The notes under the pieces were generated by a model. The model made no database searches, was not told the origin of the DNA, and worked only from the letters and a program-made list of their open reading frames with translations. Of a stretch of 64,000 nt of DNA, positions 4,431 through 42,816 are shown one piece after another. The stretch covers positions 20,536-84,535 of the forward strand of contig VCJN01001186.1 of NCBI GenBank assembly GCA_006384855.1. The letters run 5' to 3'. Positions within the stretch are counted from its first letter, which is position 1, and each line of letters opens with the position of its first letter. Source of the DNA: Tetraselmis striata. Taxonomy: Eukaryota > Chlorophyta > Chlorodendrophyceae > Chlorodendrales > Chlorodendraceae. Both the position numbers and the translations under genes were made by a program.

Positions 4431-4487
4431 TGCTACTACCGCCCGTAGGCCGTAGCTGGCGAGTATATTATTATGCTATTTCTGGTA

Positions 4488-4634
4488 TCCCCGGGGGTCA
4501 TCATACTTTCCCGCGGGCCCTTAACACCGTAAAACCGACACCTCGGATCGACCAAACTTTCCCGCGATCCGTCCATACTTTCCCGCGACCCGCCCAAACA
4601 TTACCGCGACCCGCCCATACATTACCGCGCTCAC
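4488..4634 (+). repeat. Left terminal inverted repeat
   Basis: Matches the reverse complement of 8,497-8,618. The outer 33 bp are perfect. Then comes a patch that differs from the right end (about 35 bp here, shorter on the right), then a subterminal block of short repeats (TTTCCCGCG, ATTACCGCGACCCGCC). Arrays like this often bind transposase, which is inference here. Confidence 0.85.
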
Positions 4635-4771
4635 AGAAAGTCACACAGGTCGCCGCGTGAGCTCCCCTCCGCCCCCACATATAGCCGAGCTTTGCGGCCA
4701 GGACCAGCTTGCTGCGCTGTGAAGCTCTCTACGCGGCCTGGCTCGCGGGGTAGGCGCATGCCGATCGCGTC

Positions 4772-4809
4772 GCACTATTATCATCAGCGTCGCTCGATGA
4801 TAATAGTGC
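4772..4809. promoter_or_regulatory. Perfect 14-bp hairpin upstream of the transposase gene
   Basis: The arms GCACTATTATCATC (4,772-4,785) and GATGATAATAGTGC (4,796-4,809) are exact complements around a 10-nt loop. It lies inside the transposon, between the left TIR and the first clear exon. A role in expression or as an internal transposase site is possible but unproven. Confidence 0.5.
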
Positions 4810-5558
4810 CATATATGGTCGGCTCATCGTCTGTCATACTGCCACGTTCTAATATAATCGTCCCCGCCGTGGTGTGCGAGCCCAGGTATGTAGCCAGTCG
4901 TGATGGCGAGGGGCAGTGGAAGCAGTAGGTTGACGACGGGCGGCACGGCCGGAGCTCGTGGCGGTCAGTTCGGTGGCGTGCGGAAGAAGAAGACGAAACA
5001 GCAGAAGCAGGTGGGGTGACCGTTCGGACCGCGCTGTGATGTTTATCTGTCCTGCTTGATTGACGTCCGGCTCGGCACACTGCAACCGCGTCGCAGTTCT
5101 GCCTACTTCTAGCTCAGCTAGCTCGCGTTTGTTCCATTTACGTCGCGTGTCTGCGTCCCTGCTAACATAGATGGTAATAACATAGAAAATACAGGAAATA
5201 CAGCACCATAACACTACATATAGGAAGTGCTAAGCCGCTAACATATGTCGCAGAACATGGTATATATGTATGTATATGTATATATGATTGTCACTGCATA
5301 CATGGCCCAATGAACTTGGGAGTGACACAACCAGGTGTGCTTGTGACAGTTCATATGATGTAATAAATGTATATGTATGCTTGGCAGCCGGACGGTGCGT
5401 GTGGTAGTGCTACAGCAATCGTTACTTATGTATGTACTTGCTGCATCACGCCGACGATGAATATATATGTATTGAATCATGAATCTTTGGTAATATTACA
5501 GGCACCCAGCAGGACACGGGTGTACAACAGGGTCAACACCAAGAATCTGACTCTGGTG

Positions 5559-8128
5559 ATGTCCATGCTCGAAAAGGCTGAAGAGCTGACAATGCGCGGC
5601 TCGGCTGCTGCATATACATCAATTAATGCCGTGATGGCTGCCGGAGGTGTCACCCAAGCAAAGCTGCGTCAGCAGGAGAAGGACGGCAGCTTGGGAAAAG
5701 GGCCTGGTCTCAAGACGTGGCCTGTGCCTGCGGCGCCCATCAAGTTTGAGACCATCAAGCACTATTGGTCAAAGCCAAAGGACATGGAACAACGCAGATA
5801 CGTGCAAGTCATCCAAGCCGGCGAGGGCATCCGAGCCCCGGGCAGGCCCCCACTCTGCCCTGAGGCAGAAAAGTTCATAGCTGATGTCGTCAGCACAATG
5901 ATTCTGCGGGATGAGCCTCTGCATCATCGAGAGATCAAGAAGATGGCCAGAGCTGTATTCATTGAGTTAGGGTTGCAGGATGTGTGTGGTCGCCCCTACA
6001 CCAACGACACAAACATGGACAATTGGTACAAGGCATGGGTCCAGCGTTCAAACATCGAAGGCATTGATTTCTCGCACCGCAAGGGCTATTCCAAGGGTGC
6101 ACAACGTGGCTATGCACTGACCAAAGACAATGTCAAATGGTTTCACGAGAATGTGAGGGCACCACATACATAACATCTGTTTCTTATTGTAGCTTGCTGA
6201 GGGCACATTGCTGTGTAGCTGCGGCTGTTGCCTCGGCTCTCTCAAATATAATGCAACACTAACTTTCATATTGTGGTAACGCAGCTTTGGCATCATACAT
6301 AGATAGCGTTCTTCACTTATACCATATATATGGTGGTCTCTAGCTATTGATTGCCCGCTAGCATTCAAGGCATAACATCGATATACATTCTAGTACTGAC
6401 ATGTGATGTTCATGTTGTTGCATATATATAGGTAATGTGGCCTGCTATGGAAAGCCTGCGCAAGCTCACAATTGAGTGGCACAGTGCAAAATATGGACCA
6501 GATGTCGAGATACCTCGACCCTTGCTAACATTTGATGTGGTCATCAACTACGATGAGACTGTGATAGACATCAACGTCCTGCTCACTCAATGTGCTGGCA
6601 CAAAGAAAGGATTTCTCACCCTGAATGGCTATAAATCTAACATCACAGTGCCTAAAGAGCGCGCGGAGCATGTCACAGCCATCTTGGCTACCATCGGTGG
6701 GAACGCAGCCACTGGCAGAATGCCCGCATCGGGAGGGGCAAGTGGCAGCCGCCCTGCCGCCCCTGATGTCTTTGACCCCACAGCTGCTAAGGAGCGGGCG
6801 ACCCTGGTTTCGGCGGCTGCGCGGCGAGCCTTGGAAGGATTGTTCAACGATCCACTTGCCTATCGCACCCAGGCAGGGCATTCCCGACGGATGACAAGCT
6901 CCATGTCCCGGCGGGGAGCGCTCATTACTGGAAAGGATTTTGGGGATCACCTGGCGGTATGCCACCTGCCTGAATTAAAAGTGACATGACCGATGCAGCG
7001 GATAATGGCTGCCCTATTGTAATGATGCGATGCTGAAATTGTATATGTTTTGTCTGCAGGACAAGGAGCTTGCAGAGGAACTTGAGAATGCCATCGCCGA
7101 TGCGAAAGAAGAGGTTGATGAGTTGAAGGAAAAAGTCAAGGTGCTGATGAGCCCCTCTTCGTGGCTGCTAGCAGTGAATAACATAGCATCATGAATTGTG
7201 TGATGCGCAATTGAAAGTAGAGGCGTAGCAGCCGCCCTAACATTTTCGCCATCTACATGATGAGCAAGCATGATTGCAGTGCGTGGTTCAGACCGTGTAG
7301 CATAATCAATCCCATTGGTAGCTTGCTCATGCTCTTTATTCATTGCACTGCCACACGCAGGCTGCAACTGCGGCTGAAAAGAAAGCACTGCAAAGCAAAC
7401 ATAAAGCTGAGAAGGAGCTCAAGGTCAGCCGCGATCAGCTCGCAGAGGTCAAGGCAGCTGAAGCTGATCTTGAGGCCAGCCTGAGGAAGGCCAACGGCGA
7501 TGTCGCCAGGGCGTTGAAGTCACTCCGCTCCATGACAGCTTTGAAGGTTGATCTCGCTCGCCATGAGTGGTGCTGTGACATGCATATATGTGGATGTTGA
7601 CTGTCATGTTTCTGTGCGGCTTAGACCTTTGTCTACTCCCGCCAAGATGCCCCACCGCGTGTAGCGCTGCGGACAATCTCCAAGGCTGAGCTCGGCGACA
7701 AGTGGGCCTCGCAGCTTAATGCACCCCGCGCAGAGTACGACACCGGCATTGCCGCTAAGGCTTCCGCGGTGGAGCGGGTGCAGAAGGAGCATGAGGAGGC
7801 GGAGAAGGAGTTGGAGCTGCAGCAAGGTCTCCTCGAGCATGAACAAGAGTGGCACCACGAGTACTCAAGGCAGCTCAATGAGGTGAAGGAGCGCATGGCA
7901 GAGCGCCAGAACACTGCATCGCATGGTTAAGCTAATTATCAATAAATGTGGTGAGCTGAAAACAGGTAGAGCTGAAAACAAAAAAAGGCCTTTTTAATAT
8001 TGATGATTGTTTGGAATGCAGCCATTCATAACCAGATGATGACTGGCCGCATGTCGGATACCGGGCTGCCGCGTATCATGGCTGGCATGGGTATGCAGGC
8101 GCAGCAGATGCAGGGCATGCCCCGCTAG
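5559..8128 (+). CDS. Transposase-like protein with C-terminal coiled coil (six exons)
   Basis: Predicted exons: 5,559-6,152 (first exon open back to an acceptor at 5,501), 6,432-6,956, 7,060-7,140, 7,361-7,546, 7,625-7,925 and 8,022-8,128. All donors are GT, all acceptors AG, and phases agree at every junction, giving about 597 aa. Residues ~90-180 resemble pogo-type helix-turn-helix DNA-binding regions: a GRPP start, a PLHHREIKKMA helix and MDNWYKAWVQR. At ~237-243 lies NYDET, like the first catalytic Asp motif of DDE transposases, followed by an EHVTAILATIGG strand. The expected second and third acids are not visible. A low-complexity linker and charged heptad-rich coiled coil (~375-560) follow instead, then a Met/Gln-rich tail. 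The start codon is uncertain. It may be a truncated transposase fused to a coiled coil, or a repressor or accessory protein. Confidence 0.65.
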
Positions 8129-8496
8129 GGGCGGTACGGGAAGCACGGCATGCAGCAGCAGATGCCACAAGAGGTGAGCCGTCCCGCGCATAGTGTGCCC
8201 TAGCAGAACCGTATCGCTGCCCTGTGCAGCCGCGCCCTGGGAGACGGTAGCTGGACGCATGTCATCCTTACACCGTAGAAGTTGCATCCATGCCACACTG
8301 CCGGGGTCGTTGGCATCGGGTCGGCTGACGTGACCCACTCGAACAGCGCCAGCTCGCATCCGCGCCATCGCCCGCCGCACACCGCAGCCGCTGCCGTCGC
8401 CGGCCCTCCGGGACCACGTGTGCCTCTCCCACCTTGCCTGGGACGCCGCAGTGGGGTCGCTATGGGCGGCCTGGGGAGGCAGGAGTGCTGGTTGTG

Positions 8497-8618
8497 AGCG
8501 CGGTAATGTATGGGCGGGTCGCGGTAATGTTTGGGCGGGTCGCGGGAAAGTATGGGCGTCCCGCGGGAAAATTTGGATGCGTTTTGGGCCCGCGGGAAAG
8601 TATGATGACCCCCGGGGA
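8497..8618 (-). repeat. Right terminal inverted repeat
   Basis: Inverted copy of the left end, finishing in ...CCCCCGGGGA immediately before TA at 8,619-8,620. It has the same order of GCGGGAAAGTATG and GCGGTAATGT words as the left end, and a small indel in the middle patch. Confidence 0.85.
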
Positions 8619-8879
8619 TACCGGGTAATCCTTACGGGTACCGCGGTCGGGGGCTATCTTGCCTGCGGAGCCGGTCCTGGTCTCCTGGATGCACCTCGTG
8701 GCGTTCTGCCCTGTCCTGGCCTGGCCTGGCATGTACGAGCGACTACATTATTATACTACTACAAGTGTTATACTACTACAGTAGTACTGGCGGCATCGCG
8801 GCTATAGCAAGTACTGTCGCGCTATTGTTAATGTCGAGCACTGTACGAGTATGCATGGGTAATGATGCTGGGTTCGGTT

Positions 8880-8960
8880 ACTTAGCGACTTTTTATGGTG
8901 ATTTTCTGATATCGCCTTCTGCTGCTAGCTCATGCTGTAAATATATAGTTACTTAGCGAC
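8880..8960 (+). repeat. Retroelement 3'-end fragment
   Basis: TGGTGATTTTCTGATATCGCC, then a GCTAGCTCATG word and TGTAAATATATA. This parallels the stretch after the stop codon of the retroelement fragment at 52.65-52.70 kb. TGTAA is the usual chlorophycean polyadenylation signal, which fits a 3' untranslated end. Confidence 0.5.
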
Positions 8961-9084
8961 TAGTAGTACCTACTATAGTTCGAGGTACGACAGTAGGTGA
9001 ATTTGTTATGATACCTACGCTAGCGGCAGGCTTGAGCATACATACTAAACCGTGTCTGGCGGGCAATCGCAATGCTAGTTGCCA

Positions 9085-9418
9085 TGCATGCTGGATGAGG
9101 AAGTCCCGAGTGTACAACTTGATGTATGTTGCCGACTGCAAGGATCGTAACAGTGAGTGTTTCCTTTCCGCGGGTCCTAGTAATGGGTATTTGACTTCAA
9201 TCGGCAACATACACTAACTTTCATTGTGTCCCCAAATTGATTTAGGGAAGCACGCATCAATTTCCTCCTTCCGCCGAGCGTGGCTTCAATTGTTTCCGCA
9301 TGTGAAGATTCCGAAGGCCAAGCGTTTCACCAAATGCAACTTGTTTGCCACTTTGCTCAACGACCACCGCTTCAATGTAGACGAGAAGAAGTGCGTTTTC
9401 GACATGTTGACAATATAA
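9085..9418 (+). pseudogene. Two exons of a putative transposase N-terminal region
   Basis: The first exon, ending with donor GTGAGT after 9,151, encodes MRKSRVYNLMYVADCKDRN. The second starts after TTTAG at 9,245 and encodes KHASISSFRRAWLQLFPHV, then KIPKAKRFTKCN, before a stop at 9,416-9,418. The phases match (A|GG codon). The pattern of a helical segment ending FPHVKIPKxxRFTKC recalls putative transposases in algae and oomycetes. No catalytic domain follows, so the copy is incomplete. It may be the continuation of the exon at 2,949-3,511, interrupted by the TA-flanked transposon. Confidence 0.45.
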
Positions 9419-9821
9419 TGATAGACAGTGGTGTTGTACGTACGTATCTGTAGGGGCCTTTGTGGGGGGCGGGAGGGGGGGGGGTGCGAGTGTTGGCTAC
9501 TCGTGCCCATTAGACAATGCGATTTGAGCACTGTAACAATTAGACACTTCAAGTATTTCCTCTCGCACGCTTGCCCCACGCACGATGTCAAACGCAATGA
9601 ATTGATGGGGTGGCGCGCGTCTTGACTTAGGTTTTTCCTCGCATCCGCTCTGCGCATGCCCAATTTTGCACGTTTTGCGCGGGTAAATAGTGAAATCGAG
9701 TGCAACCAAGGGGATTTTGTGCAATTGTGCCTCCAAAACATGCGTTTTGAGAATTTCGTGCAAAATGGCTCAAAAAAGGCAACTTTCACAAGTGAACAAC
9801 ATAACACTTTAAATGAACGAA

Positions 9822-23052: not shown

Positions 23053-26000
23053 CAAGCTCGTTGACCCAGAGCTCCATGGGCTACGGCCCAACCAAGTGAG
23101 ATGTGCTTTTGCTGGGATCGAATGGTGGAGATGGGCTCACAAGCTGGTTTCAACCAATTGGTCGAGCCGCGCCATCGGTATCAAGGCTACAGCTGTGCAA
23201 CGTGTGGAGGGCAGGGACGATCCTGAGGCTGGAGACTTCAAGCTTTTCTTCAGAAGATGCCAAGAGAACGCTGGCATCAGCATATGCAAGCGCTTCCCCG
23301 AGAAGCTGGCGGATGGCACACCTCTTCCAGACCATCTGAAGGAAAAGGAGTGCTTCACCTTGGTACCAGGAACACAGCATGATGAGGAGGGTGGAGAGGA
23401 GGAAATCTACAACGTCTCCTGTCCTCTTGCTGCAGAGGGCGCTGATCATGCAGCCCATTTCGCCAAGTTGCTGCTGGTGCAAAACAATCATGGCGCCTGT
23501 CAGGTCTGTAGCTTACTACCCCGCCTGTTAGGTCTTGTGGTTTGCCAGCCCCCTGGTCTTCCTCTAATTTTTCTTGCAAGATATGAGAGTAGTGTGGCTG
23601 AATGATCTGAATCAGTGCCCCGTGAACATGTGCTGTCGCACTTGCTGGGCTTACTGTACCGTGGATATGGTGCTGAATGTAGTCATGGTGCAGGTGTTCA
23701 CTGGCGGTGGCAAGTCTGCCCTAGAGGTAATGGACGCCCTGACCAAGCCCTGCCCTCCTGGGTTGGCCGACCAGTGTTGGATCTTTTCCAGCAGCACTGC
23801 CAGCAACGCGTCCATGCTTGAGGCGCTCTGCCTGACACCGCAGTGGAATGCGAAGAGAGAGGCTGTGATCAAGAACGCCTTGCAAAACAAGCTCTGCCGC
23901 TGGTTTGGCATCACAGTCGACCAGGCCTACAGTCTCCGCAGCCATGCTGTGACCTTCAAGGGCGACAAGACACCCCTCGCCATGGTTCAGGCAGCGTGGC
24001 TGGTGTTTGCCAGCTTCCAGCAGGTCGACACAAACGTCAGCAAAGACATCGAGCAACTGATCACCACGGCTGGGCGTGTAGTGATTGATGAGGGAGACGT
24101 CGGGACAGGCCTGAAACCAGACTCCAAGTGGGCGTGTCTCCTCAGCAAGTGCCGCGGCTATGTCACCTACTTCTCAGCGACGCTGGAGCGCCATGATAGG
24201 CTGCCGATGCCCAATCCCTACTGCAGAGTGACCTACGCTGATGTGTTCAGAGAGCGCTCCGCCAAGAAGCTACACATCATCAACTTGAAGCGCCAGTACT
24301 CAGTTTCGAAAGAGGACGGCTCAGTGATGATTTGTGATGGATCCAGAATCCCCAAGTAAGTGCCGCTTCTGATTGCAATTGGCCATGGCAGTCAGGCTGG
24401 CCGTTACCTGGCAAAGCACTCAACCTGTGTATGCACACAGTGTTGCCCAGTAGTCTTTGACTCCTTTGCACAGCGATGGTTTAAAGCTTCACGCATGACT
24501 GAGCCGTGTCGTCCCTTTTTCAAATACACAGGAAGCAGCGGGCAAAAGTGCTCACTTTCAAGTTTCAGTTACGGAAGGATCCCAAGTGCGGTACCTTCTC
24601 CAAGTACATGCTGACCATTCTGGAGTATCACTTTCAGCAGCGCCACACTTCAGGCTTCCCTGGTGTTCTGTTGGTGACCTGTCCACCGTCAAACTATCTT
24701 CAGGAGCACTTGCCAGCATTGAAGCGCATCATCGAGGGTCTAGTCAAGGACTTGGCAGCAAGGAAGGACTACCCACATCTCAAACTGGCTTCGCATGGAA
24801 CCATCGTGGAAGGGCAGCGCATCAGTCGGAGGGTTGCAACGTGCGCCCTTACGAACCAGCCCATCTGTACCACCTGCGTGTCCGGTGCCCTGACAGGTAC
24901 CGAGAGGCAGAAGTTCCTGGGCGACATGGAGCTGCACGAAATTGACATCGTGCTGCAGATCAAGATGCTGGGACGCTCTGCTGACTACCCCTTCATCACC
25001 GGCGTCGCAAACATGGGTGAAATCACGTCCTATGCAAGCAGCTTTCAGGGCAACGGTCGCGCTGCTCGCATTGTCAGCGGAGCTGACGATCGTACTTGGA
25101 CCAGACCAGAGTACGGGCCGTTCCTGTCGTCGGCTGGCTTCCAGCGTGCGGACGCCACCCACCCGAGGGGCTCGCAGCCAATCCAGGAGGCCTTCATCTA
25201 CGAGCTGGACCTCTGTGCCCCCATGCACCAGGACAAGCATCTTCAGAAGTTCCTGCAGGAGGAGCGCGCCGAGGAGCTAATCGATGTGATCGACCTCCTT
25301 GTAGGCGACCCTGGCAGCCCAGAGCCTGTTGATGTTGACGGGGACCTGGCTGCCGACCTTCAGCCCACTGATGCGGCTGCAGATGGCGATGTACCGGACA
25401 ACCAGCAATCCGAGCAACTGTTGGTGATGGGGCTTGAAGCATTCGAGGCGGCTGTCCCCTTTGTGGTGGGGGATGCCCTGCACATGGACATGACTGTCAG
25501 CTTGGCCCAAGACTATGGCCAGGCTCAGTACTCCGACCGCCTTGGATGCATTGTGGTAGAGAAACCAACATTCTTCTTCCAGGGTCAGACCACCATCTTC
25601 GGCGACCGTCAGCTGACAAATCTCACAGATGGGCGTACAGACAGCACGTCTGGCATGTACACGGTACAGGAGAATCGCGATCGGAATCTGAACAACAGGA
25701 TCGAGCGCGTGCGGGTGGTGCTGTGCAAGGACAACGGCGAGGCTTTGTGCTGCACAAAGTGGAAGGAGGTGCCAGTACACAGCCCAGAGCCAGGACCCTC
25801 GCCAGCAGGTGATGATGATGCCAATGATGACAACGACGAGACGGCTGATCAGCAGCAGGAGCAGGAGCAAGGAGGTGTTGCTGATGAGTTGGAGGAGGAG
25901 GAGGAGGAGGTGGTGGTGGTGGAGGAGGTTGTGGAGGAGCAACAGGGGCAGGAGGGTGGCAATGAGCTTGAGGACGGGGAGGGGGAGGGGGAAGACAGTC

Positions 26001-27133
26001 CCGGCACACACGCCCGGGCTGTGCCCCCACGGTCACGCAAGCGCTGCGAGGCCGTGCAGGAACACCAACCCAGTGAGGATGACACAGAGGATGAGGAATA
26101 CCAACCCTCCAGTGAGGATGACACGGAGGACGAGGAATACCAACCCTCCAATGAGGACGAGTCTGAAGATGACGGCGCTAAGAGCAATGATGACCCCCCC
26201 GGCAGTGAGGGCGACGGGGACAGTCAGGGCAATGATGATGATGGCGCTGGCACAAGTGCGCCGCGCGCGAGGAAGAGGAGACGCCGTGTTGTGGCTGTGG
26301 AGGACATTGGCACTGGCACCGGCTTTACGACAAACGTTGTGGAGGTCACTCCAACCGGCGAGCTGACCACGCGCCAGGACCCCCGGCGGACCAGCCAAGT
26401 CGGGAGCGCCAGTGAACCCACTCCGGAGTTGGTCCGACATGCGCTGGGCGCACTGCTGGCTGCCCCGGGTGATGAGCTCTCAAGTACTGAGCTCGAGGAG
26501 CACATGTTCAGCCAGATTCCTCGGCGTCCAGTTCCTGCGCATGGGGTCCGCGATGCGATGGGCCAGGTGTGGCAGCGCCTTCAGGATTACCCACAGGGAG
26601 ATCATCGGCGCAATTTGGAGGCTTTTCTGAGGCATGAATACGGCCATGGTTCTGGAGAGCAATATGTCAATGGGGAGCGCAACCCGGTGTGGGATGCCAG
26701 CCACGCATTCAATAATATTGTCAACAATGTAGACCGTGCCACCGCGGCGTATGGATTGCGCGTGATAAACAACCGCTACGGCGAGTCCACACACGCCCTT
26801 ATTGGCGCAGTCGGCAGCCAGTACCCCCCGGAGCAGGTCAGTGGTATCATTGAGCGGGTCAGGAGCGCCATTTTCCAGCTGCGCAGCGACCCGCGGTACC
26901 TCACAAACAATGGCCAGCTGGTGCGCAACATCACCAGGGATTATCATGCCCTCTATGTCGAGGACGGCAGGATGTGGCGGTGCGTTCCAGTTGAGCAGCC
27001 CCTCAGCAGTGGCGATATGCCCAGCGAGGAGGAGGAGGAGGAGCGAGACGGTGACAGCCTGGACTCTGACAGGCATGATCCTTCTTACACTGGGGACAGC
27101 GATGGCGAGGCGGAAGATTCAATTGAAGATTAA
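23053..27133 (+). CDS. SF2 helicase-like protein with acidic C-terminal region (5' end missing)
   Basis: Exons: about 23,053-23,503 (starts at an acceptor, so earlier exons are missing or lost at the array edge), 23,694-24,355 and 24,532-27,133. Phases agree. Helicase signatures in order: motif I FTGGGKS at the start of exon 2; motif II VIDEGD (24,081-24,098), where DEAD/DEAH is usual; motif III FSAT (24,171); motif VI QGNGRAAR (25,046-25,069). About 1,240 aa are visible. After the core lies an Asp/Glu-rich region with EDDTEDEEYQPS-type repeats (26,068-26,170), then a conserved-looking domain of about 230 aa that I do not recognise, and an acidic tail. It could be a nuclear host helicase or the helicase of a large mobile element. 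The nucleic-acid substrate cannot be told from sequence. Confidence 0.7.
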
Positions 27134-41096: not shown

Positions 41097-42816
41097 ATGG
41101 CGCCCACCGACGACGCGATGCCCGGCGGCGGCTTCTACTGCAGCACCAGCGGCACCACCTTCGCCAGCAAGGAGGCACTGGCGGAACATTACCGCTCCGA
41201 CTTTCACCGCTATAACCTGAAGCGCAAGGTGGCGGGGCTGCCGCCCGTCACACGCGAGTGGTTCGACGCGCGCAAGGCGCAGCTCGCCAGCAGCGACGCC
41301 GCCAAGAGTGCGGCCGCGGAGCGGGTGCGACCCTCCCTCCCCCCCCCCCAACCTTGGCTAGCAATCTCAGCTAGCTTCCCCCTTCATATATGCCTTGATG
41401 GACACAGCCGACAAGGGCCTCCCCCAGATTATCGAGTATATACTCTGTACGTTCGCGAGTCGAACTCCCTTTCCTCTCCTCACGAAGAAGCCTCGCCGCT
41501 ATTCCACGACCCAGAAACGTCGCCGCTGGGCACAGAAAGGGCGACGGATTATGGGGTGTGCAGAGGCTGTCGAGACCACGACTGATTGTTGTATCGTGCA
41601 AGCAGATGGCAACAGAGAGGGTGGGCGCGGCGCATGGGGAGAGGTGTTCGCCCAAGGCAATGGGGGCTGACCAACTCGCCTGTGCCCCTCCACCCCCACT
41701 TCCTCCTTATGTGCCGCGCACCAGGTGTGGATCTGCCCGCTGACCAAGAAGAAGTTTTCCAGCGAGAAGACGTACGAGGCGCACACCCGCTCCCGCAAGT
41801 ACCGCGACCTGCTCAAGCAGCGCGGCATCAGCGGCGAGCCCCCCGCACCGGTGGTGGCGCTGCGCGGCGGCAGCGAGGCCCCCGCCAGCACCGCCGGCGC
41901 GGCCCCCGCGGCGGAGGCGGCCGCTGCCGCGCGCCCCGACGGCGCCGGCTACAGCGTGAAGCCCGTCGGGCCGGCGGCCGCCCCCAAGGCGGCGCCCGGC
42001 AAGGCGGCGGCGGAGGGCAACATGGACGCGGAGGGCGACGACTCGTCCGGCTGGGAGACGGCGTCGGACGAGGGCGGCGAGGGTGGGGAGGCGTGGGACC
42101 CGCGGCGCAGCCTGTTTGACAACCACATGAGCGCCAGCCTGGAGGACAACCTGGCGTACATGTGGAAGAACTACGGCTTCTACCTCCCCGACTCCGACAG
42201 CCTGGCGGACCCCGCCGGCCTGGTGGCCTACCTGGGCCTCAAGCTCACCGAGGGCCGCGTCCCCCTGTACACCCACGGCGACGACGCCTCCGCGCGCCAG
42301 TTCCCCAGCCTGCACGCGGTGCAGCGCCACATGGTGGACACCAACCAGTGCCGCCTGGCGTGGGAGGGCAACGCGGAGGAGTACGAGGAGTGGTACGACT
42401 ACGGGGAGGAGGAGGGGCAGGGGCAGGGGGAGGGGATGGAGGTGGACGGCGGCGCGGGGCCGCTGGCGGTCGCCGGCGGGCCGCCGCGCGAGGCGGGCCT
42501 GGGCGCGGGCGGCTACGAGCTGGTGGTGGGCGGCGACGGGGGCGGCGGCGGCGGCGGCGGCCGCAAGGTGCTCGGCTCGCGCGAGTTTGCGCAGTTCTAC
42601 CGGCAGCGCCACAGGCCCGCGGACGGGCGCGCCAGCGTGGCGGCGGCGGCGGTGGCGGCGCAGTACCGCGCGCTGGGGGCGCCCACCGCGCCGACCGTGG
42701 ACGCGGGCCAGGCGCGCGCGCAGCGCACCGCGCAGCACGCCTCGGGCAAGCACGCGCAGCTCACCTTCATGCGGGAGAACATCAACCGCAACCTGCCCAA
42801 AAACGTCCCGTACTAG
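41097..42816 (+). CDS. REI1: REI1/ZNF622-like cytoplasmic 60S biogenesis factor (two exons)
   Basis: Exon 1 is 41,097-41,324 (ATG in GAAACCATGG) and exon 2 is 41,725-42,816, joined in phase 0, giving 439 aa. Orthologues (yeast Rei1, human ZNF622, plant REIL) act late in cytoplasmic maturation of the 60S subunit, around the exit tunnel and Arx1 release. Signatures: HRYNLKRKVAGLPPVTREWF at the first finger, FSSEKTYEAHTRSRKY, DNLAYMWKNYGFYLPD, DPAGLVAYLGLKL, FPSLHAVQRHM, a WYDYG segment after an acidic stretch, and a C-terminal LGSREFAQFYRQR plus NINRNLPKNVPY. Zinc ligands are largely missing: finger 1 has C15/S18/H31/H37, finger 2 C80/T83/H96/Y102, and fingers 3 and 4 keep almost none. The linker is Ala/Gly-rich, as in algal proteins. 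TGTAA at 43,044 could be the polyadenylation signal. Confidence 0.92.
41339..41349 (+). repeat. C-tract just inside the REI1 intron
   Basis: 11 C, starting 14 nt after the GTGCGA donor at 41,325. Confidence 0.9.

Follow-up and report, generated by a model that had tools for sequence, protein, structure and literature searches.

A TA-flanked, probably internally deleted transposon of Tetraselmis striata whose relatives carry pogo-like catalytic motifs followed by a predicted coiled coil

The window, by which we mean the whole 64,000-nucleotide stretch of Tetraselmis striata contig VCJN01001186.1 that was analysed, includes at positions 4488 to 8618 an element bounded by terminal inverted repeats (TIRs) with a TA on both sides. 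Its features, the exons being those of the predicted splicing, are the following.

4486..4487, no strand: left copy of the TA target site, from the empty-site comparison
4488..4635, plus strand: left TIR, 148 bp, its outer 33 bp matching the right end perfectly
4552..4629, plus strand: 21-bp tandem repeats, 3.7 copies, within the left TIR
4903..5010, plus strand: exon 1, 36 codons, basic, conserved in copies
5502..6152, plus strand: exon 2 of 217 codons, which presumably codes for the DNA-binding region
6432..6705, plus strand: first part of exon 3, start of the catalytic core with NYDET (first Asp)
6705..6706, no strand: very probable deletion junction, about 1.17 kb with the second and third catalytic Asp gone, frame kept, 2-bp (GC) overlap
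6706..6956, plus strand: rest of the fused exon (exon 3 as a whole, 6432-6956), linker, located after the core in full-length relatives
7060..7140, plus strand: exon 4, predicted coiled coil
7361..7546, plus strand: exon 5, predicted coiled coil
7625..7925, plus strand: exon 6, C-terminal domain, second helical stretch of weaker periodicity
8022..8128, plus strand: probable exon 7, Met/Gln-rich tail
8493..8618, minus strand: right TIR, 126 bp, outer 33 bp identical to the left end
8499..8570, minus strand: 21-bp tandem repeats, 2.9-3.4 copies, within the right TIR
8619..8620, no strand: right copy of the TA target site, from the empty-site comparison

The original prediction had placed both ends of the element right to the base, and the inverted ends with a perfect outer 33 bp that it described are found as TIRs of 148 and 126 bp. 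The 21-bp repeats within them could be candidate sites for multiple transposase binding. The genome search with the terminus that had been proposed was carried out on 224 Mb in 2903 contigs using TA plus the terminus as the pattern and allowing up to two mismatches; it gave 17 matches, all of them perfect, on 11 contigs, while the reversed control gave 0 matches in the same genome, and the TIR/TA ends are therefore not due to chance. In the fetched copies a scan without the TA requirement found TA preceding 17 of 17 perfect termini. Both flanks of the element are found together at no fewer than 16 other places of the genome (40 of 55 candidates were scored), and empty sites were fetched from the 12 of these places where the two flanks abut; in the four left out (C548, C1399, C1815 and C458) the matches to the flanks are shorter, contain gaps or lie far from each other. 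Each of the 12 fetched sites has one TA (...CTGG-TA-CCGGG...) where the window has TA-element-TA, which directly demonstrates that the element inserted at a TA and duplicated it, in agreement with the TA predicted immediately outside both ends.

A dispersed repeat surrounds the element, comprising the left flank up to position 4487 and positions 8619 to 9700 on the right. The right flank has at least 11 other full-length copies, with 95-97% identity, among the 40 scored of 1098 first-look candidates, and a shorter part of it, starting at about position 9357, recurs in further places within the same scored set. Elsewhere in the window, positions 41671-42816 include a 381-aa ORF with a match to zf-C2H2_2 (E 8.1e-15), and positions 24503-27133 an 876-aa ORF with a match to Helicase_C (E 0.002) that is below the curated cut-off. 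The light-harvesting family gave 63 matches in the genome, which together with the introns fits a photosynthetic host.

The gene located between the TIRs has GT-AG exon borders and a single open frame of 652 codons without a stop, as judged from splicing predicted on sequence only. The six-exon gene initially proposed stands as far as its open GT-AG frame is concerned; the exons are six only if the Met/Gln-rich tail is left out and seven if it is included. The donor at 7547 (GTTGAT) is weak. Exon 7 is read to the same stop in six of the seven copies that have its start (the window copy included; 10 copies were scanned). Also recovered were the transposase-like N-terminal half, with the first Asp in NYDET, and after it the linker and the coiled coil. 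Exons 4 and 5 code for no proline and have a 3.5-residue hydrophobic periodicity of power 1.63 as compared to a shuffled mean of 0.24, a value as high being reached in 7 of 5000 shuffles; as a prediction, their sequence fits a coiled coil. The helical stretch of exon 6 has a less pronounced periodicity, equalled or exceeded in 166 of 5000 shuffles. Pfam gave no match for exon 2, HTH included, and an AlphaFold model built from the single sequence of this exon consists entirely of helices at low confidence (mean pLDDT 46.7); its best stretch, residues 171-180 with a pLDDT of about 80, is too weak for a fold search. Comparison of exon 2 with DDE_1 transposases from the same genome using hhalign yielded an E of 0.13 across 13 columns.

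The catalytic core expected after the first Asp had been described as missing, and this is correct for the window copy but not for the family, since sister copies hold the segments with the second and third Asp. Among the nine close copies (L009-L017), six have a break at window position 6705/6706: L009 and L010 end there and L012 to L015 begin there, while L011, L016 and L017 lack this point entirely. Beyond the left side of 6705, L009 and L010 run on into the remaining catalytic region; the right part of the missing stretch is present in L012, L013 and L014, and its middle part in L016. Where the L009/L010 and L012-L014 stretches overlap, their identity is 95.8-98.5%. Parts of the first missing piece are found in six close loci (L009, L010, L012, L013, L014 and L016) and the second missing piece in three (L012, L013 and L014). 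In the close family the sequence of the missing exons is ...ALPMMLIFARSSMPTKLA and SELRGEFVAVTTTSNGWVTNDKKIAYLEFLQCHG... (L010), followed by DGHSTNMTAEVRALCLANRDEAIAGIAHSTGNTHGADASYHGIIH and RSFKLRLGDICRQRLRFN... (L012). The size of the deletion, about 1.17 kb, is the sum of 809 bp (L010) and 363 bp (L014) pieced together from two sets of copies, none of the close copies found spanning both breakpoints. At 6705/6706 the parental sequences have a 2-bp overlap (GC), and the reading frame across the junction is intact. The sister copies that retain one side of the lost stretch, either left or right, are 96-99% identical; the comparison points to a window copy that lost its core by internal deletion and to sister copies that still hold segments of it.

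Two other origins of the gap were considered and set aside. A core concealed by a wrong exon model was discarded because genome searches with both missing pieces listed no match in the window's contig. An assembly error in the window copy appears unlikely from the assembly, in which the TIRs and flanking sequence are undamaged and other copies have deletions of a similar kind.

No locus among the 12 close ones found (the window and L009-L019) has the whole gene; L018 (fragment C30) is cut off by the end of its contig, and L016 and L017 have one terminus each. Eight deletion junctions were tested across 10 copies. Six of them, including that of the window, are unique, and two are shared, one by L012 and L013 and the other by L014 and L016, the flanks being different in each case. 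The same deletion junction at two sites with different flanks implies transposition after the deletion, and two deletion variants have thus clearly moved in their deleted form; the transposase for these copies would have come from elsewhere, in trans. A 282-bp copy (L019, 549-830) consists of two TIRs with almost nothing between them and TA on both sides, and may be considered the MITE-like form in which deletion within this family ends. Four deletions join exon to exon, in frame in the window copy and L015 and out of frame in L011 and L017, the chance of two or more in-frame joins of four being 0.41. The joins of L009, L010, L012/L013 and L014/L016 were left out of this scoring, their breakpoint being in an intron; in L009 the frame continues in phase across the former donor site, and this copy is also frameshifted in exon 2.

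Longer family members with a catalytic domain, another of the checks proposed, were looked for, and two loci, L023 (C2337) and L020 (C2411), cover the whole gene. They belong to a sister subfamily with 65-67% identity to exon 2 of the window, and neither is flawless. Both include, in this order, NYDET, DGHYTN and AHSTHKxQSAD (the family motif is AHSTHxxQSAD), after which come the linker, coil and C-terminal domain known from the window gene. The spacing between the second and the third Asp is 35 residues in all five copies in which it was counted (L023, L074, L057, L010 and L012, the latter two being close copies). Since in the sister subfamily the coil comes after a full core, it is best read as the ordinary C-terminus of the family transposase, and the predicted coiled coil of the window gene as a native part of that protein. 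A gene that joins a partial transposase to a coil can then no longer be held to be the architecture of the family, and the suggestion of a divergent catalytic fold falls too, as sister copies have the missing Asp segments with the coil after the core. None of the five sister copies examined has an intact gene: in L020 Val replaces the second Asp and exon 2 contains a stop; L022 carries a stop as well as a broken frame; L023 is shifted by one base where two exons meet; in L057 the frame is broken and little remains of exon 2; and in L074 a splice acceptor is altered and exon 2 gave no match. A more distant relative (L075, 589-1436), with 30% identity over the exon 2 region and NFDEW in place of NYDET, suggests that elements of this kind make up a wider family in the host.

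One account of the pogo superfamily (PMC7386202) describes TA (or TAA/TAAA) target-site duplications and terminal inverted repeats, a catalytic D-D-D in which 29 to 56 or 59 residues separate the second D from the third, lengths of 1.2-5.2 kb, elements from green algae, and a pogo family, Mover, whose DNA-binding motif is undetectable by hmmscan. The window element is similar in its TIRs and in the TA duplication seen against 12 of 12 empty sites. The similarity extends to the order of the family protein, an N-terminal region followed by D-D-D, with the 35-residue spacing found in relatives in a segment absent from the window copy, and to the third motif, AHSTHxxQSAD, which resembles the PPHSTHxTQPLD of same-genome DDE_1 transposases. 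On the other hand, the family differs from pogo in having no Pfam-detectable DNA-binding or DDE_1 domain, a full length of about 5.3 kb that was obtained by addition and is just above the published range, many introns, a long C-terminal coil, and TIRs of 126-148 bp containing 21-bp repeats.

Pfam gave no transposase or HTH match in either half of the window gene and no match in the sister-copy core, a DDE_1 scan of the genome gave 77 matches with 0 at fetched copies of the family, and when the sister core was searched by sequence against the PDB the best hit had an E of 0.24 and was unrelated. When compared by hhalign to two same-genome DDE_1 transposases, the family aligned NGW, DGH and HSTHxxQxxD in order with a score of 22.5, an E of 0.027 and a probability of only 1.8%. 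After the stray residues of two fragment rows were blanked the score was 26.4, which was reached by 0 of 150 column shuffles (mean 14.7, maximum 23.6); the unblanked score is below that of the best shuffle. Taken together the alignments lend moderate support to a DDE_1 relationship. On the basis of its motifs and ends we classify the family as putatively IS630-Tc1-mariner-type with pogo-like motifs and assign it to no narrower family.

The same-genome DDE_1 transposases (L064 and L066-L069) likewise have, by eye, a pogo-type core followed by a long charged C-terminal tail; they differ in their clear DDE_1 match and long uninterrupted ORFs, and are a separate sequence family from the window element. 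These five ORFs are 485-986 aa long and their tails appear Ala/Glu/Lys-rich; helical tails may be common on the pogo-type transposases of this host. The papers listed by a literature search for a coil in a pogo transposase were all unrelated. The literature searched contained no description of the window family, which repeat databases may already catalogue.

The window copy resembles the KP element of Drosophila, as described in one account (PMC12393704), in being internally deleted, with the ends and the N-terminal, presumed binding, part kept and the catalytic sequence lost; deleted P-element derivatives and, apparently, deleted copies of this family are alike in being mobilisable in trans. 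This raises the possibility that the deleted gene encodes a functional KP-like repressor, in which the in-frame binding region and coil would occupy the TIRs or poison transposase multimers. The window gene is open throughout and keeps both of these regions, L015 is an independent in-frame core deletion that retains the linker and the greater part of exon 2, and the differences between the window copy and L010 amount to 15 of 1028 positions without indels in exons 1 and 2 plus the beginning of exon 3, compared to 34 of 1180 with 24 gap columns outside exons. KP-type P-element products retaining the DNA-binding domain are described in that account as possible repressors (PMC12393704). However, the window junction was found in one of the 10 copies scanned and, being unique, the short form did not visibly spread; two in-frame joins of four are at chance level (P 0.41); and the 15 exon differences from L010 consist of nine nonsynonymous and six synonymous changes, which gives no indication of selection acting on the short form in particular. 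The window element also belongs to a different superfamily from KP, and its junction is a singleton; any repressor role would be putative. We regard a repressor as possible but unsupported, and as an unlikely function of this copy. Somewhat less likely still is the broader proposal that in-frame core loss is recurrent, having occurred in the window copy and independently in L015, and gives rise to self-made repressors composed of binding region and coil, with the native coil as the poisoning interface.

The window copy by itself has neither the second nor the third Asp, as would be expected if its gene coded for the binding partner in a native two-protein system whose catalytic subunit came from another gene. 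We consider this very improbable, because the N-terminal region, core and coil are found in a single gene in L020 and L023; what survives of the partner transposase originally envisaged is its weak form, the dependence common to any non-autonomous copy. Hardly any weight can be given to a domesticated host gene located by chance between TIR-like repeats, for although the gene is open and multi-exon, the empty sites are clean, perfect TIRs are common to 11 contigs and a dispersed repeat surrounds the element.

The element in the window is thus very probably a non-autonomous copy, shortened by internal deletion, of a multi-exon IS630-Tc1-mariner-type transposon with pogo-like catalytic motifs. 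Between its TIRs the family carries one gene for a protein composed of an N-terminal region, the D-D-D motifs, a linker, the coiled coil and a C-terminal domain. The full transposase would bind the TIR repeats, multimerise in part through its C-terminal coil, and cut and paste the element at TA. Incomplete repair of the donor gap could generate the internal deletions, a process with which the 2-bp overlap at the window junction may be associated, and the deleted copies would be mobile only with the transposase of another copy.

The presence of the core in sister copies means that the half-transposase does not represent a novel type of element, and the core-less architecture of transposase and coil that had been claimed is removed. 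What stays useful is a diverged, intron-rich, TA-inserting family that is invisible to Pfam, with 21-bp repeats in its ends, a coiled coil that appears to be the native C-terminus of its transposase, and a series of deletion variants.
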